Below are positions 13,251-47,470 of a DNA stretch of 64,000 nucleotides, piece by piece (the first letter of the stretch is position 1; each line of letters begins with the position of its first letter). The notes under the pieces are model-generated. The model searched no databases and was not told the DNA's origin. It saw only the letters and a list, made by a program, of their open reading frames with translations. Made by a program: the position numbers and the translations under genes. The DNA comes from Imperialibacter roseus. Lineage in GTDB: Bacteria; Bacteroidota; Bacteroidia; Cytophagales; Cyclobacteriaceae. The DNA lies in NCBI RefSeq assembly GCF_032999765.1, contig NZ_CP136051.1, positions 620,001-684,000 on the forward strand. Reading direction: 5' to 3'.

Positions 13251-13574
13251 ATGAAGCTAGGAGCATTTGAAGAATTGGTATTACTGGCAGTAGGTTCGCT
13301 TGGTGAGGAGGCCTATGGGGTTACCGTAAAGGAAACACTTCAGCAGAAAATGGGTAAGAGCCCCAGCATTGGTGCCCTGCACTCCGCTCTTTACCGGTTG
13401 GAGGATAAGGGCTGTGTAACGTCTGAGGAGGGCGGTGCAACAACAGAACGGGGTGGTCGCAGGAAGAAATTTTATAAGCTGACGGCCTATGGCATTACCA
13501 TGCTGGAAGAAGCCAATCAATTGCGAATGGAGTTTGCCCGTCAGGTGCCAGGGCTAAACTTAAGCACGGAGTAA
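13251..13574 (+). CDS. PadR-family transcriptional regulator 1
   Basis: This 107-residue winged-helix protein has the PadR pattern: LGAFEELVLLAVGSLGEEAYGVTV at the N-terminus, recognition-helix region SIGALHSALYRLEDKGCV and wing GGATTERGGRRKKFYKLTAYG. PadR proteins repress nearby genes and are released by small molecules or phenolic/antibiotic ligands; the ligand here is unknown. It lacks the long C-terminal dimer helix domain of PadR-s2, as is usual for the short type. A repeat pair lies just upstream and a permease gene 79 bp downstream. Confidence 0.9.
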   Translation: MKLGAFEELVLLAVGSLGEEAYGVTVKETLQQKMGKSPSIGALHSALYRLEDKGCVTSEEGGATTERGGRRKKFYKLTAYGITMLEEANQLRMEFARQVPGLNLSTE

Positions 13575-33595: not shown

Positions 33596-33651
33596 TTGCA
33601 CAAACTTGAACAGCGTTTGAACGGAAAAATGATCTTCATTTTCATTACTTG
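33596..33651 (+). promoter_or_regulatory. Phased TTGAAC-box promoter, copy 1
   Basis: Boxes TTGCAC (33596), TTGAAC (33606) and TTGAAC (33617) are spaced 10 and 11 bp. TACTTG, a -7-like element, begins at 33646, 29 bp after the last box, and the ATG of the secreted protein follows at 33679. The same layout, with the same 29-bp distance, precedes the genes at 41491 and 42745. No TTTG -33 element is present, which fits an activator-dependent promoter. Confidence 0.6.
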
Positions 33652-33678
33652 AGGAAAATAGGTTCAAACAAAACTCAA

Positions 33679-34455
33679 ATGAAAATGAAGAATCAAAGAA
33701 ACACGGCTAAAGCAAAATTCAGTTATTGGAAGGCGGCCTTAGCGGCATTGGTGATGCTCATATCGGCTGACCACTTGATGGCACAGTCAGCCAAATACAC
33801 CCTGCTTGTGGACGTTGCTCACGGCCAGAAGTTCTACAACAATCCCAGTAAAATGAACGCTTCGGCCGGGAGCGATGGGCCCAGAGTGGAGTACCTTATC
33901 GGGGAACTAAGCAAAAATGCCAGTAGTCTTGGTGCTCAGGTTGGATTTCTAAATGAAGCCATCACGCCTGCGCAATTGGCAAAATGCGACTTGCTGTTCA
34001 TTCATATTCCATCCAGCACTTACAGCGCCAACGAAGTGAAAGCCATTACCGAGTACGTTGCCAAAGGAGGTTCGTTATTCCTCGTGATGGAAGAGGATTA
34101 CTGGTCAACACTGAAGCAAACCAATACCAATGATTTGATACGACCATTTGGCATTCAGTTTGGTGAAAATAGTACAGACTCATTGTCTGGCGGCTTTACG
34201 AAACCCACGCCGGTGGTGAAAAGCCCTTTGAAGATCACCTATCACGGAGGTCGGGTCGTCACAGGAGGCACGCCGTTTTGCTTCAACAGCCAGACTAAAG
34301 CGCCTTTTGGAGTTTTTGCGACACTTAACAACGGTGGAAAAGTGATAGCGATGGGTGATGGCATGACTCCGCTTTACATGACCAGCTGGAATGGCGTCAC
34401 CGATTACCAGTGCAGCGAATTCATGGGTGCAGTGCTTGGGTGGTTGTTGGAGTGA
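33679..34455 (+). CDS. Secreted protein with glutamine-amidotransferase-like fold (DUF4350/GldG-like)
   Basis: This is a 258-residue protein from the ATG at 33679; an upstream TTG-initiated frame extends into the promoter and was rejected. A signal peptide ends at about residue 37 (VMLISADHLMAQ|SAK). The mature part (YTLLVDVAHGQKF, VEYLIGELSKNASSLGAQVGFL, CDLLFIHIPSSTYSANEVKAITEYVAKGGSLFLVME, GKVIAMGDGM) matches the alpha/beta fold seen in DUF4350 and in the auxiliary component of gliding ABC transporters. No catalytic triad is evident. The promoter belongs to the phased TTGAAC group. Confidence 0.72.
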   Translation: MKMKNQRNTAKAKFSYWKAALAALVMLISADHLMAQSAKYTLLVDVAHGQKFYNNPSKMNASAGSDGPRVEYLIGELSKNASSLGAQVGFLNEAITPAQLAKCDLLFIHIPSSTYSANEVKAITEYVAKGGSLFLVMEEDYWSTLKQTNTNDLIRPFGIQFGENSTDSLSGGFTKPTPVVKSPLKITYHGGRVVTGGTPFCFNSQTKAPFGVFATLNNGGKVIAMGDGMTPLYMTSWNGVTDYQCSEFMGAVLGWLLE

Positions 34456-34707
34456 TGAGCCTCAAAAACAATATGGCACAGGTTTCATTGTCTTTGGGCA
34501 GTGGACCTGCTTCTTCGATTTCTCAGATGCTGTTCTATTTGTTTTTCGGAAGGACGTGAGTCAAAGCACTTCAATTTTTTCAAAGAAGCGCTAATGCGCA
34601 CTTTCTTTCTGTCAAACACACTTAAAGGGTCTAAATGTTTCATGCGAAAAGGAACTTTAAGATCCAGTTTTGTAGCAAATTAGTTTGCTTCAGGATTTTC
34701 ACAGTCG
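34456..34707. other. Intergenic stretch with one weak hairpin
   Basis: These 252 bp hold no convincing gene. AAAGAAGCGC (34582-34591) can pair with GCGCACTTTC (34596-34605), followed by TTTCT, which may end the transcript of the preceding secreted-protein gene. Short open frames here lack a start context and any recognisable product. Confidence 0.3.
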
Positions 34708-35097
34708 CTAGGCATGCGACAAGATAAACTCTGCGTCAATTTTTAATTTGTCGTGAATAGCCTTTAAAAAAGCCACATCAGGCTCACGTTTACCAGAAAG
34801 AATTTGAGAAAGTTTAGGAGCAGCAATTCCCAATGCTTTCGCCAGCTTGGCTTGCGTTAATTTCTGTTCAACCATTTTTAATTCTACTGCTTCCCGCAAA
34901 TTACCTGGCCGGATAGGCATTATTTCCATCACCTTGTCTTCATAAGTTTCAGCCAGTTTTGAAAGGGTGTTTAATAAATCGCTCTCTTCTTTTGCTAGTT
35001 TATGAAATCCCCCCTTTTCTGTGGCTTCCTTCAAGAGCTCCTCAATGGTTTTCATCACCATCTGGTATTCTTTCTCAGTCCTTATTTTGGTTATCAT
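34708..35097 (-). CDS. higA: HigA-type antitoxin with HTH (XRE) domain
   Basis: This is a 129-residue protein from the ATG at 35097-35095 (MITKIRTEKEYQMVMKTIEELL); an upstream in-frame ATG lies inside the toxin gene and adds a non-family extension. The C-terminal HTH (KLTQAKLAKALGIAAPKLSQILSGKREPDVAFLKAI) binds DNA and represses the operon. The N-terminal helical part neutralises the toxin. It follows higB by 10 bp, the toxin-first order typical of higBA. Confidence 0.88.
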   Translation of the reverse strand: MITKIRTEKEYQMVMKTIEELLKEATEKGGFHKLAKEESDLLNTLSKLAETYEDKVMEIMPIRPGNLREAVELKMVEQKLTQAKLAKALGIAAPKLSQILSGKREPDVAFLKAIHDKLKIDAEFILSHA

Positions 35098-35107
35098 TTT
35101 GAAGCCG

Positions 35108-35401
35108 CTAAATTTTAGTACAATCAATTTTGTCGTAATTGGTGTGCGTGCCAACATAACGGATATAAATAGTTCTTATATCAAAGAATATCATGGCAAC
35201 CAGTCTGTATTTGTTCCCCTTAATATTGAACACATACCTGTCATTGCCCACATAATCGACCGAATTAAATGTGGTCTTTATGTCTTGAAGCGTAGCCCAA
35301 TCGGCTTTTCTGGTTTTAGCCCACCAATCGTTAAGCGGTTCAATAGCATCGGCGTGGCTTTTACCAAATTCCTGCAATATTGTTTTCGCTATAACAACCA
35401 C
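35108..35401 (-). CDS. higB: HigB-type mRNA interferase toxin
   Basis: This 97-residue RelE-superfamily toxin of the HigB_toxin type (MVVIAKTILQEFGKSHADAIEPLNDWW; TFNSVDYVGNDRYVFNIKGNKYRLVAMI; IRYVGTHTNYDKID). Such toxins cut translated mRNA on the ribosome. The closing THTNYDKID motif is characteristic of this subgroup. An AT-rich inverted repeat lies directly upstream. The gene pair stands between permease blocks 3 and 4 in opposite orientation. Confidence 0.9.
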   Translation of the reverse strand: MVVIAKTILQEFGKSHADAIEPLNDWWAKTRKADWATLQDIKTTFNSVDYVGNDRYVFNIKGNKYRLVAMIFFDIRTIYIRYVGTHTNYDKIDCTKI

Positions 35402-35414
35402 GTTGATCGATTAA

Positions 35415-35460
35415 TTTCAATAGTATAAATAATATTTCATTTTTTGAAATATTATTGAAA
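35415..35460. promoter_or_regulatory. Nested inverted repeats upstream of higB, probable autoregulatory operator
   Basis: AATAATATTTCA (35428-35439) and TGAAATATTATT (35445-35456) are perfect 12-bp arms with a 5-nt loop. TTTCAATA (35415-35422) and TATTGAAA (35453-35460) form an outer pair. The site lies 14-59 bp upstream of the higB start codon. It overlaps the false upstream start of the block-4 permease. Confidence 0.6.
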
Positions 35461-35512
35461 TTACTCCAGGCCAGTATTTTTTTCTCCTTTTCTGCAACCT
35501 TTCATTTTTTGC

Positions 35513-35542
35513 CAGGTACCTTAGACAAAGGTGAAACTAATA
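35513..35542. promoter_or_regulatory. Shared 30-bp element before the PadR-less block-4 permease
   Basis: This 30-bp stretch, containing CAGGTACCTTAGACAAAGGT, is 27/30 identical to 38238-38267 in front of PadR 4. The core ACCTT-N5-AAGGT is an imperfect palindrome. The element ends just before the chosen ATG at 35545, so the upstream in-frame ATG at 35455 would make the element coding and is unlikely to be used. Confidence 0.6.
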
Positions 35543-35544
35543 CC

Positions 35545-38166
35545 ATGCCGCAGAGCCAAAACCAGATCGACACAAAGCTGACTCCTCCAAAATGGATGAC
35601 GAGGTTTTTTACCTGGTACTGCAATGATCACCTGTCTGACGCTGTGTTGGGCGACCTGCTCGAATTGTACGAAAGGAGGCACGCACAGCTGGGCAGGCAC
35701 AGGGCCAACTGGTTTTTCTTCTGGAATGCGCTTCAGTTTATCCAGCCCTTTGCCGTGAAACGAAACTCAAAGAAAAGGTCAAATCAAATAAATAGTTACA
35801 CCATGCTAAAACACTACTTCAAGGTTTCCTGGAGAAACCTTTTCAGAAACAAGGGTTACTCCTTCATCAACATCGCTGGCTTGTCGGCAGGCATGGTAGT
35901 AGCCATGCTCATTGGTTTGTGGATATGGGACGAATTCTCGTTTGATACAAATTTTGACAACCGCTCCAGGCTGGCCGAGGTAATGGCGCATCAGTCAGCC
36001 GGAGACATCTCCTACACTGGAACGACTGTGGCGATGGCGCCTGGTATTGCCCTTAAGGAGCAGTATGGCGACAATTTCGACGGTGTGTCGCTGGCATCGA
36101 AGAATGGTGACCATGTACTTAGCTATGGAGACAAATTGATGTCCGGAAAGGGCATGTGGGTACAAAAGGATTTTCCGGAAATGTTTACCGTGGAGATGCT
36201 GCAGGGCAGTCGGGGCGTTTTAGTGGATCCATCAACCCTGCTAATTTCATCGTCGCTGGCGAGAGCAGTGTTTGGCGACGCCGATCCTATGGGCAAAACC
36301 ATCCTGCTCGATGCTACCACCAACTTTGCGGTCGGGGGTGTGTATGAGGACTTTCCCCACAACTCAACACTTTACGACACCAGGCTTCTGCTGCCATGGG
36401 AAAGCAAACAGAACTGGATGAATTCACCAGATGTGTTATCGAGCTGGACGAATCACTGTGGCGTGGCTTATGTGCTTTTAACCGAGCAGGCAGACATTTC
36501 TCAAATCAATGAACAAATCAGGGAATTGCCGAAACCCTTCATCACCGGATGGAAAGAGGAGTTGCTGATTTATCCGCTTGCAAAGTTACATCTCTACAAC
36601 GAGTTTATCGATGGCCAGGGTGCCGGAGGCCGAATCCAATATGTTTGGCTGGTAGGCATCATTGGGGTTTTCGTGCTGCTTTTAGCTTGTATCAACTTTA
36701 TGAACTTGTCCACCGCCCGCAGCGAAAAGCGTGCGAAGGAAGTAGGCATTCGCAAAGCCATTGGCTCAGTACGCACGCAGTTGATCCTGCAATTCCTCAG
36801 TGAGTCGCTCACTATTACCCTTCTTGCCTTCGTGTTGGCGATGATCGTTACACAGTTTGCCTTACCCTTTTTTAATGACCTGGCCGATAAGCAAGTGGCT
36901 ATTCCGTGGAGCAACCCAATATTCTGGCTTGTGTCGCTAAGCTTTGTTGTTTTCACGGGAGTCGTGTCGGGCAGCTATCCGGCTTTTTACCTTTCCAGTT
37001 TTCAGCCAGTGAAAGTGCTAAAAGGAGTGATGAGGGGCGGGAGGTTCGCTTCGCTCCCCCGCAAGGTGCTGGTTGTCATTCAGTTTACGGTATCTGTCGG
37101 CCTCATAGTAGGCACGATCATTGTCTTCCAGCAGATCCAATACGCTAAAAACAGACCCGTTGGGTACAGCCGCAATGCGCTTGTATCAGTTCAAATGAAT
37201 ACAACCGACAAGCCGGGATTGTTTGCTGCACTAAAAAACGAGCTGCTCCAGACAGGTGCTGTCGAACAGGTGGCCAGGTCATCGCAGTCTCCGGCCCACT
37301 TCAATAACAACAACAGTTTGGACTGGAGAGGGAAAAATGTGGAGTCAGAAATATTCTTCCGAAATGTGAATGTATCGCCGGATTTCGGCAAAACCATTGG
37401 CTGGAGCATCGTGGAGGGCAGAGACTTTTCCAACGAGCTGGCCTCCGACTCCGCTGCCGCTTTGTTGAACGAGGAATCTGTCAAGATCATGGGATTCGAA
37501 AACCCCGTAGGTGAAGTGATTAAGTTTTGGGACAAGAACTATACAGTAATCGGCGTGGTGAAGGACATGCTCACGCAATCACCGTATGACCCCATGCAGC
37601 CGGCGGTCTTTCTGGGAGATGGCTGGCAGGGCTTGATCACCATGCGACTGAATCCAAATCTTCCCATTAGAGAAGCATTGGCAGCCATCGAGCCTGTGTT
37701 CAAACAATACAACCCCACGGCTCCGTTCGAAGCGCAGTTTGTGGACGAAGAATTCAATAAAAAGTTCGCTGACGAGGAGCGGGTGGGTAGTTTGGCAGCA
37801 TTCTTTGCTATCCTTGCCATCTTCATCTCCTGCCTCGGGCTGTTCGGGCTGGCGTCCTACGTGGCTGAGCAGCGTTCCAAAGAGATCAGCATTCGCAAAG
37901 TGCTGGGCGCTTCGGTAGCTATGCTGTGGAAAATGCTTTCCAGAGACTTTGTGATTCTCGTCACCATCTCTTGTTTCATTGCTATGCCGCTGGCTTATTT
38001 CTTTATGAGCGACTGGCTGCAAAGTTATCAGTACCATACCTCTATCGCCTGGTACATTTTCGCTCTATCGGCGCTGGGGGCTTTTGCAGTCACCTTGCTC
38101 ACAGTAAGTTTTCAGGCAATAAGGGCGGCGGTGGCTAACCCGGTGAAGTCTTTACGGGCGGAATGA
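35545..38166 (+). CDS. Orphan FtsX/MacB-type permease with N-terminal prefix (block 4, gene 1)
   Basis: An 873-residue protein from the ATG at 35545 (MPQSQNQIDTKLTPPKW). Prefix: PPKWMTRFFTWYCNDHLSDAVLGDLLELYERR, the block-4 type; linker SNQINSYT; body from MLKHYFKVSWRNLFRNKGYSF. TM2 about 365, TM6 about 751. Coupling loops KRAKEVGIRKAIGSV and QRSKEISIRKVLGAS; it ends NPVKSLRAE. It has no PadR of its own: the higBA pair occupies the upstream position, but the 30-bp element before it is shared with PadR 4, so that regulator may control both. The body is closest to the block-2 permease. Confidence 0.88.
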   Translation: MPQSQNQIDTKLTPPKWMTRFFTWYCNDHLSDAVLGDLLELYERRHAQLGRHRANWFFFWNALQFIQPFAVKRNSKKRSNQINSYTMLKHYFKVSWRNLFRNKGYSFINIAGLSAGMVVAMLIGLWIWDEFSFDTNFDNRSRLAEVMAHQSAGDISYTGTTVAMAPGIALKEQYGDNFDGVSLASKNGDHVLSYGDKLMSGKGMWVQKDFPEMFTVEMLQGSRGVLVDPSTLLISSSLARAVFGDADPMGKTILLDATTNFAVGGVYEDFPHNSTLYDTRLLLPWESKQNWMNSPDVLSSWTNHCGVAYVLLTEQADISQINEQIRELPKPFITGWKEELLIYPLAKLHLYNEFIDGQGAGGRIQYVWLVGIIGVFVLLLACINFMNLSTARSEKRAKEVGIRKAIGSVRTQLILQFLSESLTITLLAFVLAMIVTQFALPFFNDLADKQVAIPWSNPIFWLVSLSFVVFTGVVSGSYPAFYLSSFQPVKVLKGVMRGGRFASLPRKVLVVIQFTVSVGLIVGTIIVFQQIQYAKNRPVGYSRNALVSVQMNTTDKPGLFAALKNELLQTGAVEQVARSSQSPAHFNNNNSLDWRGKNVESEIFFRNVNVSPDFGKTIGWSIVEGRDFSNELASDSAAALLNEESVKIMGFENPVGEVIKFWDKNYTVIGVVKDMLTQSPYDPMQPAVFLGDGWQGLITMRLNPNLPIREALAAIEPVFKQYNPTAPFEAQFVDEEFNKKFADEERVGSLAAFFAILAIFISCLGLFGLASYVAEQRSKEISIRKVLGASVAMLWKMLSRDFVILVTISCFIAMPLAYFFMSDWLQSYQYHTSIAWYIFALSALGAFAVTLLTVSFQAIRAAVANPVKSLRAE

Positions 38167-38237
38167 AGGCAAAGACAGCACTTTTATCAATTATCGGGAA
38201 ATAAATTTCATAATGCCTGAAACCTTTTAGTTCCATG

Positions 38238-38267
38238 CAGGTACTTTAGGCAAAGGTGAAACAAATA
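38238..38267. promoter_or_regulatory. Shared 30-bp element before PadR 4
   Basis: Second copy of the element at 35513-35542, with three differences in 30 bp. It ends 5 bp before the PadR 4 start codon and is the best candidate for the site that this PadR binds. Confidence 0.6.
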
Positions 38268-38272
38268 AACGC

Positions 38273-38611
38273 ATGAAGGGAACATACCTGGGTGAATTCG
38301 AAGAGCTTGTACTGCTAACGGTCGGTATTCTGTACGACGATGCTTACGGTTTGGCCATTGTAGATGAGCTGGAAAAGCAAACAGGCCGCAATGTCATGAT
38401 CAGCTCGGCGCACAAGGCTTTAGTGAGGCTGGAAGACAAAGGCTACCTGAAGTCGAAAATGGGGGGAGCTACTGAGCAAAGAGGTGGAAGAGAAAAGCGA
38501 CTTTACGAGCTGACCCATGCCGGTGCTAAAGTCTTAGAGCAGTCCAAAGAGCTGCGAAACTCTATGTGGAGCAAGGTGCCCAAAATAGTATGGGAAGGAA
38601 ACAACCTATGA
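38273..38611 (+). CDS. PadR-family transcriptional regulator 4
   Basis: This 112-residue winged-helix regulator (LGEFEELVLLTVGILYDDAYGLAI; MISSAHKALVRLEDKGYLKS; wing GGATEQRGGREKRLYELTHAG). Its stop overlaps the next permease start by four bases (ATGA), giving translational coupling. Unlike the other regulators it lies between two permease genes; the 30-bp element upstream of both suggests that it regulates both. Confidence 0.9.
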   Translation: MKGTYLGEFEELVLLTVGILYDDAYGLAIVDELEKQTGRNVMISSAHKALVRLEDKGYLKSKMGGATEQRGGREKRLYELTHAGAKVLEQSKELRNSMWSKVPKIVWEGNNL

Positions 38612-41277
38612 AGTCCCCGATGCCCCAGAATGCAGGGCCGCCCAAATGGGCCATCCGCCTCTTTCGCAGGTTCTGCAACGACCACCTGTGCGATGCGGTA
38701 TTGGGCGATATGCTGGAGCTCTACGACCGGCGGTTCATCAAAGTAGGCAAGCGGAAAGCCGATTGGCTGTTCGTTTGGAATGTTGTTCAGTTTCTTCAGC
38801 CATTTGCCTTGAAAAAAACAAAGAAGTCACAAAACTCAAATAACGCAGCCATGTTCAAAAGTTACCTGAAAGTCGCCTGGAGAAGTATGGCCAGGCAAAA
38901 AATGTACACTTCGATTAAAATCGGAGGCTTCGCACTAGGCATTGCCGCCTGCATTCTCATCACGCTGTTTATAAAGCAGGAGCTTAGCTATGATAAGTTC
39001 TACAAAGACGGCGAGAATATTTATAGAGTTTACAATGAATTCGGGAGAGAAAGCGGAGCCAACAAGTGGACCTCCTTTCCTGCGCCAACCGCCGGTATCT
39101 TCAAAGCAGAATTTCCTGAAGTTGAAAAGTCAGGGAGGCTGATTCCATATGCCGGTTGGTTCAATGCGGGCAGCAACTTGTTTCGGGCGGAAGGTCAGGA
39201 GCAAAATACCTACGAGGAAGGTTTCGTATACGCCGATCAGGCTCTGCTTGACATTCTTCAAGTACCGATGGTGTATGGCCAAACAGAAAATGCGTTGGCC
39301 GACCCGTATTCGATAGTGATCTCCAAAACGGTTGCTGATAAATACTTCCCTAACGACGACCCGGTGGGAAAAGTAGTTTTCTTAAACGATGACCAAAACA
39401 AGCCCTACAAGATTGGTGGGGTTATGCAGGACTTTCCTGACAACACCCACCTTCAGTTTGATTTTCTCATCACGTTAACTGGCGTCGAATTTTGGGGTGG
39501 AGAACAAACAAGCTGGTGCTGCTGGAACTACAATATTTACTTTGAACTGCAGCCTGGCACTGATCCAAAAGAGCTGGAAGCCAAGCTGCTATCTGTTCGG
39601 GACACACACTATGTAGGTCACCTTGAAAAAGAAGGGAATCAGTCAGTAGACGAGGTGCGCAAAAATCACTTCTTCAAGCTACAACCAGTGGCCGATATTT
39701 ATCTCTACTCCGACGGTATACATGCCATGGTGGAGCAAGGCGATATTCGGTTTGTTTGGCTTTTTGGAGGTGTCGCATTTTTTGTTCTTCTGCTGGCGTG
39801 CATCAACTTCATCAATCTTTCCACCGCCAAATCGGCTAACCGAGCCAAGGAAGTGGGAATGAGAAAGGTGGTAGGATCAGTGAGAGCTCACCTTGTTAGG
39901 CAGTTTCTTACTGAGTCGGTTCTCTATAGTGTGGTGTCGTTTGTGGTAGGCATTTTGCTGGCCTGGATAAGTATGCCATTCTTTAATGAGCTGGCTGATA
40001 AATCACTGAAAATACCCTGGCTTGAGTGGTGGTTTATCCCAACCCTCGGAGGGGCGGCAACGCTTGTTGGTGTACTTGCCGGCCTTTATCCTGCCTTTTA
40101 CCTGTCAGGGTTCAAACCGATAGACGTTTTGAAGGGCAGCCTAAGCAGAGGAAGCAAAAGCTCAAGAATGCGAAGTGTGATGGTGATATTTCAGTTCACG
40201 ACATCCGTTGTGTTGATCATAGGCACCTTCATTATTTACCGCCAAATGCAGTATATCCTCAACAAAAAGATTGGCTTCAACAAAGAGCAGGTTGTGTTGA
40301 TTCAGGGTGCAAACACACTTGGCGATAAGATAAAAACACTGAAGGCCGAATTGGCCAACCTTTCGGGCGTTCAAAATGCAGCAATAAGCGGCTACCTTCC
40401 TATCTCTGGCACCAAACGTGATGGTAACCCTTTTTGGAGAGAAGGCAAGTCCAAAGAAGACAAAGCCGTTGGTGCACAGCGATGGTATGTGGACAGTGAC
40501 TATATAGGCACCCTCGGAATGCACCTGGTGGATGGTAGAAACTTTGTGCAGGGCATGGCCTCCGACTCCTCTTCAATTATTGTCAACCAGGCTTTTGTGA
40601 AAGAGTTTGGTTTTGAAAACCCAGTAGGAGAGAGAATACAAAACTGGAAGCCTTATACTATCATTGGTGTGGTGGAAGATTTTCACTTCGAATCACTAAA
40701 GGGGAAAATCGAACCCCTTACAATGGTATATGGAGAATGGGGCGATGTTGTTTCGGTAAAAGTCAGCTCGCCAGAAATGAAGGAAGTCCTTGCTTCGATC
40801 AAAGAAGTTTGGGACGACTTTGCTCCCAACCAACCCATGAGGTATTCGTTTCTCGACGAAAGCTACGCCAGGATGTACGAAGACGTGCAGACAATGGGCC
40901 GGGTGTTCACCACTTTTGCTGTGCTCGCCATTATTGTGGCTTGCTTAGGGCTCTTTGCCTTGTCCGCCTACATGGTAGAGCAACGTGGCAAAGAGATCAG
41001 TATCCGGATCGTGCTGGGAGCCTCCGGCAGGGTTATCTTCAGCCTGCTGACATTCAACTTCATCAAGCTAGTCCTAATCTCTCTTTTGCTGGCCATGCCG
41101 CTGGGCTGGTACCTGATGAAAAGCTGGCTGGACGACTACACCTACCGCACCGATATCACCTGGGAAGTCTTCGCCATTTCTGGACTGATGGCATTGGGTA
41201 TTGCGGTGCTAACTATCAGCTTTGAGTCGATCAAGGCATCAAGAATGAACCCTATCAAGAGTCTGAGGTCAGAATAG
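38608..41277 (+). CDS. Orphan FtsX/MacB-type permease with N-terminal prefix (block 4, gene 2)
   Basis: An 889-residue protein from the ATG at 38608, which overlaps the PadR 4 stop (ATGA); a start 42 bp upstream would lie inside the PadR gene. Prefix PPKWAIRLFRRFCNDHLCDAVLGDMLELYDRR; linker KSQNSNNAA; body from MFKSYLKVAWRSMARQKMYT. TM2 about 381, TM6 about 767. Coupling loops NRAKEVGMRKVVGSV and QRGKEISIRIVLGAS, the second with RI instead of RK. It ends NPIKSLRSE. The body pairs with that of block-3 gene 3, not with its own operon neighbour. A terminator follows. Confidence 0.88.
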   Translation: MKSPMPQNAGPPKWAIRLFRRFCNDHLCDAVLGDMLELYDRRFIKVGKRKADWLFVWNVVQFLQPFALKKTKKSQNSNNAAMFKSYLKVAWRSMARQKMYTSIKIGGFALGIAACILITLFIKQELSYDKFYKDGENIYRVYNEFGRESGANKWTSFPAPTAGIFKAEFPEVEKSGRLIPYAGWFNAGSNLFRAEGQEQNTYEEGFVYADQALLDILQVPMVYGQTENALADPYSIVISKTVADKYFPNDDPVGKVVFLNDDQNKPYKIGGVMQDFPDNTHLQFDFLITLTGVEFWGGEQTSWCCWNYNIYFELQPGTDPKELEAKLLSVRDTHYVGHLEKEGNQSVDEVRKNHFFKLQPVADIYLYSDGIHAMVEQGDIRFVWLFGGVAFFVLLLACINFINLSTAKSANRAKEVGMRKVVGSVRAHLVRQFLTESVLYSVVSFVVGILLAWISMPFFNELADKSLKIPWLEWWFIPTLGGAATLVGVLAGLYPAFYLSGFKPIDVLKGSLSRGSKSSRMRSVMVIFQFTTSVVLIIGTFIIYRQMQYILNKKIGFNKEQVVLIQGANTLGDKIKTLKAELANLSGVQNAAISGYLPISGTKRDGNPFWREGKSKEDKAVGAQRWYVDSDYIGTLGMHLVDGRNFVQGMASDSSSIIVNQAFVKEFGFENPVGERIQNWKPYTIIGVVEDFHFESLKGKIEPLTMVYGEWGDVVSVKVSSPEMKEVLASIKEVWDDFAPNQPMRYSFLDESYARMYEDVQTMGRVFTTFAVLAIIVACLGLFALSAYMVEQRGKEISIRIVLGASGRVIFSLLTFNFIKLVLISLLLAMPLGWYLMKSWLDDYTYRTDITWEVFAISGLMALGIAVLTISFESIKASRMNPIKSLRSE

Positions 41278-41309
41278 CATGAATGATAAACTAATAAATG
41301 GGTAAGGAA

Positions 41310-41339
41310 AAGGCTCCGGAAATTCTGGGGCTTTTTTTG
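41310..41339 (+). terminator. Rho-independent terminator of block 4
   Basis: GGCTCC (41312-41317) pairs with GGGGC (41327-41331) with an inner GAAATTC, followed by seven T. It lies about 35 bp after the permease stop. Confidence 0.75.
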
Positions 41340-41398
41340 TGCCTGAATCGAAATAGGTTGGATAGCTTGGGTGAACATATCGACACCCTCTTAACAAC

Positions 41399-41455
41399 TT
41401 GAACAGTCTTGAACGGTGTTTGAACAGGTTTTCGACAACCCACCGACTTAATTTG
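41399..41455 (+). promoter_or_regulatory. Phased TTGAAC-box promoter, copy 2
   Basis: TTGAAC occurs at 41399, 41409 and 41420 (spacing 10 and 11 bp). TAATTTG begins at 41449, again 29 bp after the last box. The ATG of the next gene is at 41491. Confidence 0.62.
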
Positions 41456-41490
41456 AGCCGGTAGTTGATCAAATTAAATTATTTAAACTA

Positions 41491-42171
41491 ATGAATCTTA
41501 CTATGAAAGTGTACCTGATTTTTGGTTGTTTATTTTTCTCGTGGTGTAGTATCCTGGCCCAGACAAAAGTAATTGAGTTAACCGGCAACAAAGAGCTTTT
41601 GCCTGTTAATGTAAATATTGCTGAGGTAGACTATGAGAAAAAAAAATCAGTAAAAGTGACTGCTATTAAGGGGAATGAGACGGCGCTGGTAAAAATAAAC
41701 GACGTTGATTTTACCAATGGCATTATTGAGCTCGATCTGGCTGGGAAGCGGCAGGAAGATTCACATCCAATGAACAGGGGTTTCGTGGGGGTAGCATTTA
41801 GAATCACAGACGACAATGTAAAGTTTGAGCAATTTTACCTGAGGGCGGCAAATGGGAGAGCTGATGATCAGGTTCAGAGGAATCATACGGCCCAATACTC
41901 TTCTTACCCGGATTATCATTTTGATGTCCTGAGAAAAGAATCCCCGGAAAAGTATGAGGCATATGTGGATATGGTTCCTGGAGAATGGACACATGTGAAA
42001 ATTGAAGTTGAGGGAGGTAAAGCCAAACTCTATGTTCATGGTAATTCTCAGCCAACGCTGATTGTAAACGACTTAAAGCTTGGAGCGAATGCCCGTGGAG
42101 CTATTGGCCTTTGGGTGGGTGGTGGTACCGATGCTCATTTTGCCAACTTGAAGGTAACGCAAAGGGAATAG
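41491..42171 (+). CDS. Secreted concanavalin-A-like / DUF1080-type protein
   Basis: This 226-residue protein has a signal peptide (MKVYLIFGCLFFSWCSILAQ; Met1 or Met5 could be the start). The mature part is a beta sandwich: NGIIELDLAGKR, RGFVGVAFRITDDNVKFEQFYLR, PGEWTHVKIEVEGGKAKLYVHG and GAIGLWVGGGTDAHFANLKVT, the pattern of LamG / 3-keto-disaccharide hydrolase (DUF1080) domains. Catalytic residues cannot be assigned, so a sugar-binding or hydrolase role is inference. Its promoter belongs to the phased TTGAAC group and it has its own terminator. Confidence 0.78.
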   Translation: MNLTMKVYLIFGCLFFSWCSILAQTKVIELTGNKELLPVNVNIAEVDYEKKKSVKVTAIKGNETALVKINDVDFTNGIIELDLAGKRQEDSHPMNRGFVGVAFRITDDNVKFEQFYLRAANGRADDQVQRNHTAQYSSYPDYHFDVLRKESPEKYEAYVDMVPGEWTHVKIEVEGGKAKLYVHGNSQPTLIVNDLKLGANARGAIGLWVGGGTDAHFANLKVTQRE

Positions 42172-42191
42172 AAGCTAATTTGTCGATAAGT

Positions 42192-42219
42192 AAAAGGCCT
42201 CGAAAGTTTCGGAGCCTTT
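42192..42219 (+). terminator. Rho-independent terminator
   Basis: AAAGGC and CGAAA pair with TTTCG and GCCTTT across a two-base mismatch, followed by CTTATTT. It ends the transcript of the DUF1080-like gene. Confidence 0.75.
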
Positions 42220-42343
42220 CTTATTTAACCATGTCGGTAAATACCAATTCGATGGCTTGGGGACAGAATAGCTCTTACAAATTGCAAGACAAGTTTTCAT
42301 TTTTGGCCATAATTGATGTACTTTCTTTTAAAACTGCCACAAC

Positions 42344-42538
42344 ATGGATCGCACAGAATTTAAGCAGGAACTCGAACGGCACAAAAATCAAATAGATGCC
42401 AGCATTAAGTTTTTGCAACAGGGCTTTGAAGATTTGAATAAGCACAACTACGAGTTTTACGGGTTCATCGAGTCTAACTACTACGATTTGGAGGAAAGAC
42501 TCTCCGCTCCGGAAAGAAAAGTGAAAGAAATTTCCTGA
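42344..42538 (+). CDS. Small charged helical protein
   Basis: This 64-residue, highly charged protein (MDRTEFKQELERHKNQIDAS...) with heptad-like hydrophobic spacing is likely helical or coiled coil. There is no signal peptide or membrane segment. It is a plausible gene because it has an isolated start, is followed by a good terminator 43 bp later and fills a gap between two terminators. I do not recognise a family. Confidence 0.5.
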   Translation: MDRTEFKQELERHKNQIDASIKFLQQGFEDLNKHNYEFYGFIESNYYDLEERLSAPERKVKEIS

Positions 42539-42580
42539 CGGGAAATTTTGCGGTTAATAATAGCTTTTGATTGAATGCAG

Positions 42581-42606
42581 GCCTTGAATTTACTCAAGGC
42601 TTTTTC
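42581..42606 (+). terminator. Rho-independent terminator
   Basis: GCCTTGA (42581-42587) pairs with TCAAGGC (42594-42600), then TTTTTCTTTG. It ends the small charged protein gene. Confidence 0.85.
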
Positions 42607-42628
42607 TTTGTCAAGGCATGGGTCTGGC

Positions 42629-42715
42629 TTGAGCAGCTTTGAACAGGATTGTGACACGCTTGCAGGAACTTGAACAGCGCTTGAATGGCGAACTGGAAAT
42701 CGCAACTACTACTTG
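42629..42715 (+). promoter_or_regulatory. Phased TTGAAC-box promoter, copy 3, with six boxes
   Basis: Boxes start at 42629 (TTGAGC), 42639 (TTGAAC), 42649 (TTGTGA), 42660 (TTGCAG), 42670 (TTGAAC) and 42681 (TTGAAT): spacings 10, 10, 11, 10, 11 bp, the pitch of B-DNA. TACTTG begins at 42710, 29 bp after the last box. The beta-helix protein starts at 42745. In-frame upstream ATGs fall inside this array and are unlikely to be used. Confidence 0.65.
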
Positions 42716-42744: not shown

Positions 42745-43803
42745 ATGAAAAAATTACTCTTCACCCTTTCTCTCTTTCTACTCTTCAAAGCGAGTACAGC
42801 ATTGGCACAGACAATTTATGTTAACCCTGACTCAGGCAGTGATATGGCTGACGGCTCTGAGAGCACACCCTATGCTACGCTCGAAAAAGCGGTTGCGATA
42901 GCCAATGAACTTACTGGGAGTGGCTCCATCACTATCAAGCTTTTTCCGGGTTTGTACTCCCTTAAGGATAAGGTGGCCATCCACCCCTTGCGGATGCTCA
43001 ACGACACCACACGGTTCACGGTAGAAGCGGTGGTGCTGCCTGACGACGAAGACTGGCTCCCGACAAAAATGCCGGCGATACAGTCAATATCCGGCAATAA
43101 TTCAAAGACGCAGTTTGTTCATTCCACAGGTCTGCTGGTGGCAACAAGCCATGTCACCATTCGTGGCTTGAAGTTTCTGGGAAGCGCCCACCCTGATGTG
43201 ACTTACTATTACCCCATTTCAAAAGAGGATGAGTCTTTAGGTGATATGGAAGTGTCACAATGTTATTTTGTATCTGAAGTGCACAGCTCGCAGATTCAGG
43301 GCGCTATTTGGGCCCAGGGGCCAAAGACCCAGATCGACCATTGTGTGTTCTACAACTGCCGCAATGCCATTCTGCTTTTCCGTTCGGTTGAAGACTTCTC
43401 AGTGACAAATAGTATCATTTACGGGGCCAATGAAAGTGCAGTATGGATGGGGCCTGTTGCGAATTTTACTTTTAAAAACAATGTAATTGCAGGCGGCAAT
43501 TATGTGTGGGTTCGGCCCGGTGACTCCAGCCCCGCTTATAAGTTCACCGATTGTGTTATGGTAGATAACCAACACTATATGGGCTACTACGGCAGCAATG
43601 GGCTGGTAGAAACAACCAACAATAAAAATTTCGTGGAAACCAATGTGGTGAAAAAGGGGAAGGTGGAACTTGTTACCCGGAAGGAGCCAGCCTATCCCAC
43701 CAACTACCTGCACCTTACACCTGGGTCTGTTGGATATGAACTGAATGCCGGGATTTTCAAATCGCCCAAACAACCCAACCCAGTCAAGAAAAAAGGAATG
43801 TAA
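42745..43803 (+). CDS. Secreted right-handed beta-helix protein (DUF1565-like)
   Basis: This is a 352-residue protein from the ATG at 42745, which opens a signal peptide (MKKLLFTLSLFLLFKASTALAQ). The mature start TIYVNPDSGSDMADGSESTPYATLEKAVAIAN is the DUF1565 / pectate-lyase-like entry, followed by helix rungs (HVTIRGLKFLG, TQIDHCVFYNCRNAILLF, FSVTNSIIYGANESAVWM, FTFKNNVIAGG). Such proteins often bind or cleave polysaccharides; no catalytic residues can be named. It ends 3 bp before the convergent toxin gene. The promoter belongs to the phased TTGAAC group. Confidence 0.85.
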   Translation: MKKLLFTLSLFLLFKASTALAQTIYVNPDSGSDMADGSESTPYATLEKAVAIANELTGSGSITIKLFPGLYSLKDKVAIHPLRMLNDTTRFTVEAVVLPDDEDWLPTKMPAIQSISGNNSKTQFVHSTGLLVATSHVTIRGLKFLGSAHPDVTYYYPISKEDESLGDMEVSQCYFVSEVHSSQIQGAIWAQGPKTQIDHCVFYNCRNAILLFRSVEDFSVTNSIIYGANESAVWMGPVANFTFKNNVIAGGNYVWVRPGDSSPAYKFTDCVMVDNQHYMGYYGSNGLVETTNNKNFVETNVVKKGKVELVTRKEPAYPTNYLHLTPGSVGYELNAGIFKSPKQPNPVKKKGM

Positions 43804-43806
43804 TGG

Positions 43807-44139
43807 TCAGTACTTCAAAATATCGTTGAGAGTTTTAACTGATTCCTGAACAGTAGATTGATCAATCTCTCCGAGTTTTTCAATAAGTCGGTCTTTTGAA
43901 ATCGATCTGATATGAAAGATCAGCATTTCTGAGATCGACTTTAATCCATTTTTGTCATCGGGTACTAATATCGGGTTTCCTTTATAGCTTTTGATTTTTG
44001 AGGTGAGGGGAATCACAATAGCGATTGGAAGATGAGTATTTAGTAGATTACCGCTTATTATTACTACCGGACGGTAGCCTGCCTGTTCACTCCCTTTCAC
44101 GGGATCCAGATTGGCATTCCAGATTTCACCTTGTCTCAT
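43807..44139 (-). CDS. MazF/PemK-family endoribonuclease toxin
   Basis: This 110-residue protein (MRQGEIWNANLDPVKGSEQAGYRPVVIISGN; IAIVIPLTSKIKSYKGNPILV; GLKSISEMLIFHIRSISKDRL) has the full PemK/MazF beta barrel with the conserved RPVVIIS and PLTS segments. Such toxins cut mRNA at short sequences. Its start overlaps the antitoxin stop by four bases (44136-44139), so synthesis is coupled. Confidence 0.92.
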   Translation of the reverse strand: MRQGEIWNANLDPVKGSEQAGYRPVVIISGNLLNTHLPIAIVIPLTSKIKSYKGNPILVPDDKNGLKSISEMLIFHIRSISKDRLIEKLGEIDQSTVQESVKTLNDILKY

Positions 44140-44516: not shown

Positions 44517-44849
44517 ATGAAGGGTACCAACTTAGGAGAATTTGAAGAACTCGTTTTGCTCACGATAGCGGCCCTGATGGAGGAGGCCTACAGCGTGGCG
44601 GTTTGCGACGAACTTACCAAACACACTGGTAGGGAGGTGAAGCTGGGAGTGGTGCACGCCGTGCTCAACAGGTTGGAAGAAAAGGGCTATGTAAAGAGCG
44701 GCTTGGGCGAAGCTACCAACGTTCGTGGTGGCAGAAGAAAACGCTTCTACACAATTACCAGTGGCGGCAAGGCTACTTTGCTTAAAGCCAGGGAGCAACG
44801 TGACCAGCTTTGGAGCATGATCCCAGACGTTGTATTTAAAGGGATTTAA
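44517..44849 (+). CDS. PadR-family transcriptional regulator 5
   Basis: This 110-residue winged-helix regulator (LGEFEELVLLTIAALMEEAYSVAV; KLGVVHAVLNRLEEKGYVKS; wing GEATNVRGGRRKRFYTITSGG). The usual AYG is AYS and the wing GGAT is GEAT, both unique among the five. Its stop overlaps the next start by one base (TAATG). It heads block 5, four permease genes that all overlap one another to 55403. Confidence 0.9.
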   Translation: MKGTNLGEFEELVLLTIAALMEEAYSVAVCDELTKHTGREVKLGVVHAVLNRLEEKGYVKSGLGEATNVRGGRRKRFYTITSGGKATLLKAREQRDQLWSMIPDVVFKGI

Positions 44850-47470
44850 TGAAAAATATTCTGCCTCCCCGCTGGGCCTCAAAGCTGCTGGAATGGTACT
44901 GCAAGCCTTCGCTTTACGAAGACCTCCAGGGTGATCTGTTTGAGTACTTCGAGCGCAATTTGCACAAACGGGGAACGGGTTATGCAAAGCTTATTTATAT
45001 AATAGACGTGCTGAAGTTTTTCAGGCTGTATACGGTTCGCCGACGACAGCTTTTTGGAACATCAAATCAACTCATCATGATACGTAGTTACCTGAAAATA
45101 GCCCTGCGGTCAATGTCACGAAGCAAGTCCTATACTGCCATTAATATCGCAGGTTTGACACTTGGGCTCACGTGCGCTTTGTTCATCGCCTTTTATGTAG
45201 CGCATGAGATCAGCTACGATCGTTTTCATGCTGACAATGATAGAATATTGAGGATAAGCTCGGAATCTGTGAGTGAAGCTGGCATTTCTACTCTTGAGGC
45301 GACCACCCCTCCCGGCCTGGCCCTTCTTTTGAAAGACAATCTCCCGGAAATACAGCAAATGGTGAGGCTAATGCCTTCCACAGGTGGCCGGAACCTGGTT
45401 CAGGTCGATGGAAAGAGTTTTTACGAGCTGGGAATGTGCCGGGCCGATAGCAGCTTGTTTGATGTGCTAAGTTTCAACTTTATCCATGGCAGCGCAGCGA
45501 CTGCTTTGCACGACCCACATTCGGCAGTCCTCACCGAATCATCAGCCAACAGATACTTTGGCACTACAGATTGTATGGGGAAAACTCTCCAGCTTGAAGA
45601 CAACTGGATGATGGGTATCAAGACGCTGACGGTTTCGGCTGTGGTGGAAGACTTGCCGTCCAACTCGCATTTGCAGTTTACTATGTTCCGACCGATCAGA
45701 GGGACCATGTGGAGTGATTTTGCCAACGATGAGGTTAACAACTGGAGAAACAGAAGTTTCTACACCTATGTAAAGTTGCACAAGGAAGTGTCAGCCGAAG
45801 CATTCGAAGCCAAAATAGAATCTGTGGTCAAAAGTCACCGAAAGGAGCTAAAAGGACATTTTTTTACGCAATCCATAAGCGACATTCATTTGTATTCGTC
45901 GCTGCAGAGCGAAATGGCTGGAAATAGCAGTTACCGGGTTATCTACCTCTTGGGCACAATAGCGCTTATTATTATGGTAGTTGCCTGCATCAACTATGTA
46001 AATATGGCAACAGCCAGAGCGCTGGGAAGGGCCAAAGAAGTTGGCATCAGAAAGGTGAACGGGGCTTCCAAAAGTGAATTAGTCTACCAATTCATTTTCG
46101 AATCGGTGTTGCTGGCTTGCATTTCATTTGCACTGGCAATCGTTTTTGTGTGGCTGTTGATGCCGTCGTTCAATACCCTGGCGGATAAGAATTTTGAAAT
46201 GGCCAGCGTCACGACGATTAACGGCTGGCTTTTCATATTCGCCGGAGTGATCCTCATAGGAGTGTTGGCTGGCATGTACCCTGCTTTCTATTTGAGTAGG
46301 TTCAAGCCTGTTAGCGCATTGAAGGGTGCCGTTGTTTCTGGCAGCAAAAGCAGTGTTAGCTTGCGGCAGGCTCTTGTTGCCATTCAGTTCGTGGTCTCTA
46401 TCGGGCTGGTAATCGCCACAGCTGTTATTCATACCCAAATCACCTACATAAGGAACAAGGATCTGGGTATTTCGAAAAGTCAAGTAATTGTTTTGCCAGA
46501 ATGCAATGATGAAGCCAGGCGAAAGAACCTAAAGCACCTTCTCCTTCAACACCCCTTCGTCGAGGAGGCGGGGAGCTCTTCCGGAAGGCTTGCGGGAAAC
46601 TTTTGGAGTGGCCGCACTACCTCTGCGTCAACGGGACAGGAAATAGGACATAAGCTTGCCTATATCGATGATAGCTACTTCAAAGCAGCCGGCATTGAAG
46701 TGGTCGAACGCTGGGAGCACCCTTCGCTCCCTGATTCTGTGAGTCCTGTGATCATCAACGAAACAGCAGCCAGGTTGCTTGGGCTTCAGCAGCCGATAGG
46801 CGAAACGTTGATTTTGCCTGGCAGCCATACGCTTGACCGTATTGTAGGTGTTGTAAAGGATTTCCATTTCAGTTCGCTTCATGAAGCCATAGAGCCCATC
46901 ATTTTCATGGAGAAGGAGGAATTTCTCCGCAACACGTATGTGCGAATTGCCCCTGGCAGCCAGCCCGAAGAAGCTGTTGCCGGTGTCAGAGCAGCCTGGG
47001 AAGAGGCATTCCCCGGACGGTTGTTTGAGTACTACTTTCTTGACCAGCAGTACGACCAATTATACAAGGCCGATGAGAAATTTGGTAAAATGGTGAGTTT
47101 GATGACCTCCATCGCCATTTTCATCGCTTTGCTGGGACTCCTTGGTCTCACTTCTTATGCAGTAAGGCGAAGGACGAGAGAAATTGGTATCAGGAAGGTG
47201 TTGGGCGCTTCGCCGGTTTCCATACTGGCTCTGATAGCCAGGAGCATTCTTATGATAGTGGCACTCTCGGAAATTGTCGCCTTGCCCCTCAGTGCGGTTT
47301 TCATGAGTAAATGGCTCGACAGCTTTGCTTACCGAATAGCCTTGCTTTCGAACCTTTGGATATTCATTGCGGCAGGAGCGGGAGTGCTCTGTCTGGCGAT
47401 GCTGGCGGTAATGATTCAAACGCTAACTGCGGCACTTAAAAACCCTGTTGAAAGCCTTAGAACAGAATGA
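44849..47470 (+). CDS. Orphan FtsX/MacB-type permease with N-terminal prefix (block 5, gene 1)
   Basis: An 873-residue protein. Prefix PPRWASKLLEWYCKPSLYEDLQGDLFEYFER is the block-5 type; linker GTSNQLI; body from Met77, MIRSYLKIALRSMSRSKSYTA. TM2 about 364, TM6 about 750. Coupling loops GRAKEVGIRKVNGAS and RRTREIGIRKVLGAS; it ends NPVESLRTE. The body differs from the other three genes of block 5 and resembles block-3 gene 4, yet the first 70 or so nt of its prefix are almost identical to those of the next gene. Start and stop both overlap neighbours (1 and 4 bp). Confidence 0.88.
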   Translation: MKNILPPRWASKLLEWYCKPSLYEDLQGDLFEYFERNLHKRGTGYAKLIYIIDVLKFFRLYTVRRRQLFGTSNQLIMIRSYLKIALRSMSRSKSYTAINIAGLTLGLTCALFIAFYVAHEISYDRFHADNDRILRISSESVSEAGISTLEATTPPGLALLLKDNLPEIQQMVRLMPSTGGRNLVQVDGKSFYELGMCRADSSLFDVLSFNFIHGSAATALHDPHSAVLTESSANRYFGTTDCMGKTLQLEDNWMMGIKTLTVSAVVEDLPSNSHLQFTMFRPIRGTMWSDFANDEVNNWRNRSFYTYVKLHKEVSAEAFEAKIESVVKSHRKELKGHFFTQSISDIHLYSSLQSEMAGNSSYRVIYLLGTIALIIMVVACINYVNMATARALGRAKEVGIRKVNGASKSELVYQFIFESVLLACISFALAIVFVWLLMPSFNTLADKNFEMASVTTINGWLFIFAGVILIGVLAGMYPAFYLSRFKPVSALKGAVVSGSKSSVSLRQALVAIQFVVSIGLVIATAVIHTQITYIRNKDLGISKSQVIVLPECNDEARRKNLKHLLLQHPFVEEAGSSSGRLAGNFWSGRTTSASTGQEIGHKLAYIDDSYFKAAGIEVVERWEHPSLPDSVSPVIINETAARLLGLQQPIGETLILPGSHTLDRIVGVVKDFHFSSLHEAIEPIIFMEKEEFLRNTYVRIAPGSQPEEAVAGVRAAWEEAFPGRLFEYYFLDQQYDQLYKADEKFGKMVSLMTSIAIFIALLGLLGLTSYAVRRRTREIGIRKVLGASPVSILALIARSILMIVALSEIVALPLSAVFMSKWLDSFAYRIALLSNLWIFIAAGAGVLCLAMLAVMIQTLTAALKNPVESLRTE

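Follow-up and report, generated by a model that had tools for sequence, protein, structure and literature searches.

What reads the tandem TTGAAC boxes in front of three genes for unrelated secreted proteins in Imperialibacter roseus? The boxes lie in a stretch of 64,000 nucleotides (the window) of a genome of 6,747,663 bases (6.75 Mb). The G+C content of the window is 46.6%, and 46.5% is given for the genome of I. roseus P4T (PMC11237651). From sequence comparison we conclude that the boxes very probably serve a family of membrane-tethered one-component activators as their operator, with the three window genes among their targets. Comparative genomics points to the likely regulator, a predicted protein with a helix-turn-helix (HTH) domain and a transmembrane (TM) helix, and the boxes in the window are most likely sites of such predicted membrane-anchored regulators. 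No HTH-TM regulator gene was found within the window itself.

The three box rows and the genes behind them are listed in Table 1. The hexamers stand exactly where a first-pass annotation of this DNA had placed them, at spacings of 10 or 11 bp. Site 1 opens with TTGCAC rather than TTGAAC, and 2 of the 6 boxes of site 3 are poor or degenerate (TGTGAC and TTGCAG). Counted from the start of the last box, the (C/T)TTG of a -7-like element begins 31, 32 and 31 bp downstream at sites 1, 2 and 3. The annotation had put the TA(A/C)TT(T)G element at a fixed 29 bp from the last box, which is right to within 1 bp, the distance at site 1 being 30. Reading the sequence directly, we found no TTTG at the -33 position of sites 1-3, in agreement with the annotation. 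All three sites hold at least three TTGAAC-type boxes at 10/11 bp with a (C/T)TTG 31-34 bp past the last box, and all are direct repeats at 10-11 bp that end near -35, a placement that rests on the putative -7 element.

Table 1. Box rows, putative promoter elements and genes in the window (positions counted from its first base)
Feature	Coordinates	Strand	Remarks
Site 1, TTGCAC-N4-TTGAAC-N5-TTGAAC	33596..33622	+	boxes at 33596, 33606, 33617; spacing 10, 11
Site 1 -7-like element, around TACTTG	33647..33652	+	putative promoter element
Gene 1, signal-peptide-like start, GIFT-like domain	33679..34455	+	PF23355, 4.4e-9
Site 2, three exact TTGAAC boxes	41399..41425	+	boxes at 41399, 41409, 41420; spacing 10, 11
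Site 2 -7-like element, TAATTTG	41449..41455	+	TTTG 32 bp past last-box start
Gene 2, 3-keto-disaccharide-hydrolase-like, signal-peptide-like start	41491..42171	+	PF06439
Site 3, six boxes	42629..42686	+	TTGAGC 42629, TTGAAC 42639, TGTGAC 42650, TTGCAG 42660, TTGAAC 42670, TTGAAT 42681; spacing 10, 11, 10, 10, 11
Site 3 -7-like element, TACTTG	42710..42715	+	CTTG 31 bp past last-box start
Gene 3, right-handed beta-helix protein, signal-peptide-like start	42745..43803	+	PF13229
Small PadR-like gene	13251..13574		PF03551

When both strands of the window were scanned for three-box matches at 15 or more of 18 positions, only sites 1-3 were recovered, with scores of 17 for site 1, 18 for site 2 and 15 for the best trio of site 3. 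Scores of 17 or 18 were seen 0 times in a dinucleotide-Markov simulation of 3 Mb, a length that gives low resolution at these scores; because they are absent from it, sites 1 and 2 are individually unexpected. The trio of site 3 is unexceptional alone, with 54 matches of at least 15 expected per genome. It nevertheless lies in promoter register and is kept in a sister species. Across the whole genome, the pattern TTGAAC-N5-TTGAAC-N23-TANTTG at 0-1 mismatch occurs in three places, namely sites 1-3; at 2-3 mismatches there are 22 more (25 in total, against 11 for a reversed-pattern control). The motif at random positions through the genome would have told against the annotation's proposal; these pattern scans and the profile scan given below did not refute it.

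Conservation was followed in the sister-species genome of the same genus, G001. The relative of gene 1 there is 85% identical and retains its boxes as TTGAAT-N4-TTGAAC-N5-TTGAAC (L015, L032:12132), and that of gene 3 (L101) is 92% identical and retains the full box row together with CTACTTG. For gene 2 the closest proteins of G001 reach only 47% and 30%; the ortholog is possibly missing through an assembly gap, both G001 contigs ending beside the region. Relatives of gene 1 in G016 (L062, 55%) and G066 (L063, 51%) had no three-box match of at least 15 in the stretches scanned, and homologues of genes 2 or 3 in G016, G034, G022 and G028 are without boxes. Among 18 upstream stretches that were read, boxes were clear in four (L061, L070, L080 and L101), weak in L102 and lacking in the other 13. 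At up to 2 mismatches the three-box pattern was matched in 13 of 39 genomes in a search of relatives, and in 3 places in G001. One might suppose that the boxes arose by chance, or by recent duplication of one promoter around permease-like genes, given that the three sites fall within about 9 kb between such genes and that sites 1 and 3 have some flanking bases in common. Set against the genome-wide rarity, the retention in the sister species and the recurrence of this architecture next to different genes in other genera, this is scarcely credible.

The candidate regulator came from the same genome. At up to 3 mismatches, the three-box pattern has a fourth site at 4420803, present in G001 too. 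Of the two genes that flank it, one is 3-keto-disaccharide-hydrolase-like; the other, divergent from it, encodes a protein of 433 aa whose N-terminus is HTH-like and which has a hydrophobic helix (regulator 1, at about 4419434-4420735; boxed divergent promoter at L028:8804-8830). A second member of the family (regulator 2, at about 2733259-2734545) also has a divergent gene, with TTGAAC-N4-TTGAGC-N4-TTGAAC between the two (L068:8204-8229, minus strand). When the HTH alone was searched against the genome and all 47 of 47 candidates were scored, there were two full matches (4.3e-42 and 9.9e-36); a third, over 15 positions with an E-value of 0.69, was taken as chance. I. roseus thus has only two clear members of the regulator family, each beside a boxed divergent promoter. 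Moreover, a relative of gene 2 in another genus (L080/L109) has tandem boxes and, divergent from it, a gene of this regulator family, and a relative of gene 3 in a further genus (L102/L110) has weaker tandem boxes and, again, a divergent gene of that family. Of the remaining three-box candidates in the I. roseus genome, 3964932 was rejected since it falls inside an open reading frame (ORF) like that of a TonB receptor; 5048151 and 6115649 are further candidate places.

The association extends well beyond the genus. Scanning a genome collection yielded 331 candidate stretches, a relative being encoded in 294 of these, and the best 80 were kept; a family match at E <= 1e-10 was present in 87 of 390 genomes of the order, from which 30 loci were drawn. 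Together with six earlier loci these made 116, of which 75 were left at 70% protein identity after 41 had been dropped as redundant. Over the 250 bp preceding the regulator gene, scanned in both reading directions, 53 of the 75 non-redundant loci, from many genera of Bacteroidota, have a three-box match of at least 15/18 reading away from the regulator, and 0 of 75 have one reading toward it; shuffles predict 0.15. Elsewhere in these loci there are 3 such matches in 1,142,632 strand-bases, two of which we read as belonging to the regulator promoters of L163 and L205, loci that had been counted as negative. Spacing matters: 8/9, 12/13, 13/14 and 14/15 each gave 0 of 75 loci, 5/6 gave 4, 15/16 gave 1 and 20/21 gave 10, and the 28 loci at 9/10 and 11 at 11/12 each include one true spacing. 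Chains scored with a position weight matrix (PWM), which hold at least three boxes by construction, exceed a score of 6 in 68 of 75 loci with the consensus aacTTGAACa(a/g), and their boxes are 10 (107 times) or 11 bp (53 times) apart, close to one helical turn. The same boxes, at the same spacing and the same distance from TTTG, thus recur in divergent promoters of one HTH family in many genera, and the I. roseus genome itself encodes two such proteins with boxed divergent promoters. This comparative evidence supports what the first-pass annotation had proposed, namely that a shared regulator would occupy tandem sites along one helix face, at a fixed place with respect to the promoter, and define a small regulon.

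The boxes also keep a register with the promoter. Among 66 loci, TTTG starts 32 bp past the start of the last box in 20, 33 bp in 9 and 34 bp in 2 (31 in total), and in 13 more it lies at 42-45 bp, a further helical turn away, which presumably reflects a degenerate last box; another 15 occurrences are spread between +6 and +79. None of the 66 has a TTTG starting 6-9 bp past the last-box start, the -33 position. The -7 box of Bacteroidota is known as TAnnTTTG (PMC9723704, PMC7366714) and is taken to span -12 to -5 (PMC9723704). As 83% of 48 aligned family promoters have an A three bases upstream of the TTTG-like element, the family element corresponds to this -7 box, and from the span of the latter the last box falls near -40 to -35. 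Class II activators sit near -40 to -35. The first-pass annotation had held that the activator replaces the -33 contact. The position near -40 fits that proposal, under which activation would be of class II; the missing -33 element alone is weak evidence for it, since, according to PMC7366714, the -33 element was not identified in F. johnsoniae and so is not universal in the phylum.

If the boxes were instead a repressor operator, the bound protein would block polymerase at the divergent promoter, and perhaps also at the regulator's own, until a signal arrives. Autorepression is easy to imagine, as the first box is a median of 27 bp (11-147, 66 loci) from the regulator start codon. However, a fixed last box near -40 with no TTTG at -33 fits a class II activator better, and the spacing of a repressor site need presumably not be fixed; we regard repression as unlikely. 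A promoter for an alternative sigma factor, with tandem boxes and -7 element read by sigma itself, would account for -7 elements in the window that are variant and weaker than the regulator-family consensus, and flavobacterial alternative sigma motifs with altered -7 boxes are described (PMC9723704). Yet three to five repeats at a 10.5-bp period are unlike a -35/-10 pair, and in other genera the downstream element is the ordinary TTTG of TAnnTTTG, which makes a sigma-read promoter very improbable.

For a search blind to Imperialibacter we built a sequence-only profile, R1, from 37 promoters of other genera, with no Imperialibacter sequence. The starting set was the 50 of 66 promoters with an accepted TTTG-like element, from which L028 and L068 (both from the I. 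roseus genome) and L109 were excluded; 10 more were dropped as poorly aligned, and the profile is hence selected for register. In the window it scores 24.8 bits at site 1, 24.6 at site 2 and 14.4 at site 3, the next place reaching 8.9. In the genome, where 150 of 2644 candidates were scored and the scan is no complete census, the 8 matches rank site 1 first, site 2 second, the regulator 1 promoter third and site 3 fifth. Of the other matches, 3342195 lies inside an ORF, 1538096 lies opposite one, and 6163244 and 918070 are single boxes; these were set aside.

The regulators share a predicted layout of an N-terminal HTH, a linker, a TM helix and a periplasmic domain like concanavalin A (ConA). 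In the predicted structure (mean pLDDT, the predicted local distance difference test, 89.4) a five-helix HTH domain without strands at residues 2-86 is followed by a low-confidence linker (89-121), a hydrophobic helix (123-138) and a beta region (157-432). A Lys-rich stretch precedes the hydrophobic helix, which suggests that the N-terminus is inside. Compared with the PDB, the whole model comes closest to sialidase, levanase, lectin and CBM66 folds (E about 1e-5 to 1e-4, with low whole-chain TM-scores), and the best Foldseek matches of the HTH are weak (DdrO, an antitoxin, phage repressors and POU domains; E >= 0.77, probability <= 0.60). In PDB sequence searches nothing matched the regulator profile, and the HTH alone had no match better than E 0.57. 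None of 52 regulators is matched by a Pfam HTH model at E <= 0.01; two of them weakly match 3keto-disac_hyd and one Laminin_G_3. In the three regulators tried, no NCBIfam model was above its cut-off.

Could the boxes instead bind a winged-helix response regulator of PhoB/OmpR type, the HTH-TM gene being merely a neighbour or another target? The architecture resembles that of Pho boxes, with 7-bp direct repeats, a 4-bp spacer and a cooperative PhoP dimer (PMC4832192). The boxes, however, go with a single protein family from genus to genus and hardly occur elsewhere in those loci, and a box variant accompanies a variant of the recognition helix within one clade: all 7 of the regulators (of 116) with SHVTLKR have TTGTAC-type boxes (L184, L189, L223, L176, L186, L197 and L213). 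We therefore consider a response regulator decidedly unlikely. The SHVTLKR loci are possibly a subclade of specificity and function. Three divergent partners, by sequence probably those of L184, L189 and L223, match aspartyl-protease and PDZ models.

One result weighs against the boxes exceeding chance: pairs of boxes alone, with up to 2 mismatches allowed, show no clear enrichment in the window (12 found, where 8.0 and 8.6 would be expected at the two spacings). Several others weigh against assigning the boxes to the HTH-TM family. The fourth-ranked R1 match, above site 3, is the intragenic place 3342195; the regulator 2 site is not among the 8 matches from the 150 of 2644 candidates scored; and R1 matches sites 1-3 over the boxes and not out to the -7 element. 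The -7 elements of the window, moreover, are without the A three bases before TTTG that most of the aligned family promoters have. By PWM 7 of the 75 loci are poor, five of them without boxes; on our reading the other two (L163 and L205) have boxes outside the scanned stretch or a misplaced start. The link between SHV and TTGTAC apparently comes from one clade and is not independent evidence, and two distant HTH relatives on plasmids, both annotated 'hypothetical protein', are without such boxes. A paralogue of gene 2 in the same genome (L099, 44%) has none either. Finally, G028 and G034 encode family members, yet homologues of gene 2 or 3 there lack boxes; regulon membership is therefore not fixed.

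The divergent partners elsewhere come recurrently from the families of window genes 2 and 3. In a set of 70 candidate target proteins, 67 of them from ORFs picked as divergent partners and the other three from the window, the Pfam families are 3keto-disac_hyd (PF06439) in 25, DUF2911 in 11, alpha/beta hydrolase in 3, aspartyl protease in 3, PQQ in 2 and beta-helix in 2, window proteins counted. Relatives of gene 3 occur as divergent partners at L168 (40%), L227 (48%), L158 (44%, an ORF of 88 aa) and L110 (48%); Q at the position of gene 3 residue 22 is nearly invariant, a residue typical here of the signal-peptide end. The Pfam family of gene 1 is matched by 0 of the 69 other target proteins. 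In L111 (G034:C35, 2358-5403) homologues of genes 2 and 3 stand in one cluster, with no boxes upstream of the two starts read and no HTH-TM gene in the stretch; the families of genes 2 and 3 are thus also linked independently of the regulator. Nor was an HTH-TM gene found in L112-L116, L118 or L119, the other stretches around homologues of gene 2 or 3. On a plasmid of Spirosoma oryzicola (L242, 577-5293), the gene of a distant HTH-TM relative diverges from one for a TonB receptor, behind which comes a SusD-type gene. Glycan uptake systems may thus also be under the control of the wider HTH family, via a different operator.

We propose the following mechanism for the HTH-TM family. The N-terminal, probably XRE-like HTH would be cytoplasmic and joined by a flexible linker and one TM helix to a periplasmic ConA/lectin-like sensor, perhaps of a carbohydrate signal. 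The HTH domains of a membrane-clustered oligomer would bind 3-4 boxes on one helix face (10.5-bp period); the last box would end around -35, from where the bound protein could contact RNA polymerase at a promoter with a -7 element only, and so activate. The operator would mostly point at a divergent neighbour, usually a gene for a secreted protein. In I. roseus the two paralogues would each serve such a neighbour, and one or both may also control the three remote genes of the window. We lean, narrowly, towards a broader picture in which these proteins form a Bacteroidota-wide class of activators with lectin-like sensors and one grammar, namely 3-4 aacTTGAACa boxes at 10.5 bp with the last about 32 bp before TTTG. 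Box position 4 would be read by the recognition helix (SHV reading T), remote genes would have been recruited by promoter evolution, and the ConA-like fold would be common to sensor and target, in which case the sensed ligand may be processed or presented by the target.

The surroundings of the boxed genes are repetitive. Blocks that combine ORFs of about 860-900 aa with a small PadR-like gene recur at 13251-33516, 38273-41277 and 44517-55403 of the window; the protein starts at 38273 and 44517 are similar to the PadR-like protein of Table 1. By appearance the large ORFs are two-part permeases, and the three boxed genes sit among the blocks. A small antitoxin-like HTH_3 gene (34708-35157, minus strand) comes after gene 1, and a PemK/MazF-like toxin gene (43807-44139, minus strand) directly after gene 3. 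A Bacteroidales small signal recognition particle RNA (RF04183, 2597-2700, minus strand, 80 bits) was the only hit of an Rfam scan of the window at gathering scores.

No description of this family or operator was found in the literature, most subscription journals and bioRxiv preprints lying outside the search. An operator, a promoter register and target families are now attached to a family that lies outside the Pfam HTH models. The shared operator accounts for the way in which genes of unrelated secreted proteins may be linked, and because it is repeated and base-resolved it makes the mechanism of a membrane regulator directly testable.

Among known systems, the closest in layout are the transmembrane transcription regulators (TTRs) such as ToxR, TcpP and CadC, which combine, as is predicted for the family here, a DNA-binding domain, a TM helix and an extracytoplasmic part in one protein. 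TTRs are reported to be enriched in Bacteroidota and their mode of action from the membrane is poorly understood (PMC10269533); the membrane-anchored CadC dimer binds two sites (PMC5430869). The HTH of CadC is winged (PMC5430869), whereas the one here is predicted to have five helices, looks weakly XRE-like in fold and has no Pfam HTH match. The OmpR-type winged HTH of ToxR and CadC (Trans_reg_C) was likewise not found by Pfam in the 52 regulators. The family further differs from these TTR examples in its operator of 3-4 phased boxes and in a sensor that looks ConA-like. The words 'xre', 'hth', 'laminin' and 'concanavalin' have 0 occurrences in the main text of the TTR census (PMC10269533).

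A further close comparison is with PhoB/OmpR proteins, and Pho boxes too are repeats near the -35 region. Like the boxes described here, they are direct repeats about one helical turn apart (PMC4832192). The differences lie in the TTGAAC box, in a regulator predicted to be membrane-tethered, and in the receiver and Trans_reg_C domains, neither of which Pfam found in 52 of the linked HTH-TM regulators. With sigma-A promoters of Bacteroidota (TAnnTTTG at -7, TTTG at -33) the promoters here share the -7 element, with TTTG 32-34 bp past the last box; unlike in those, the last operator box occupies the -33 region. The TTR class as such is already known.

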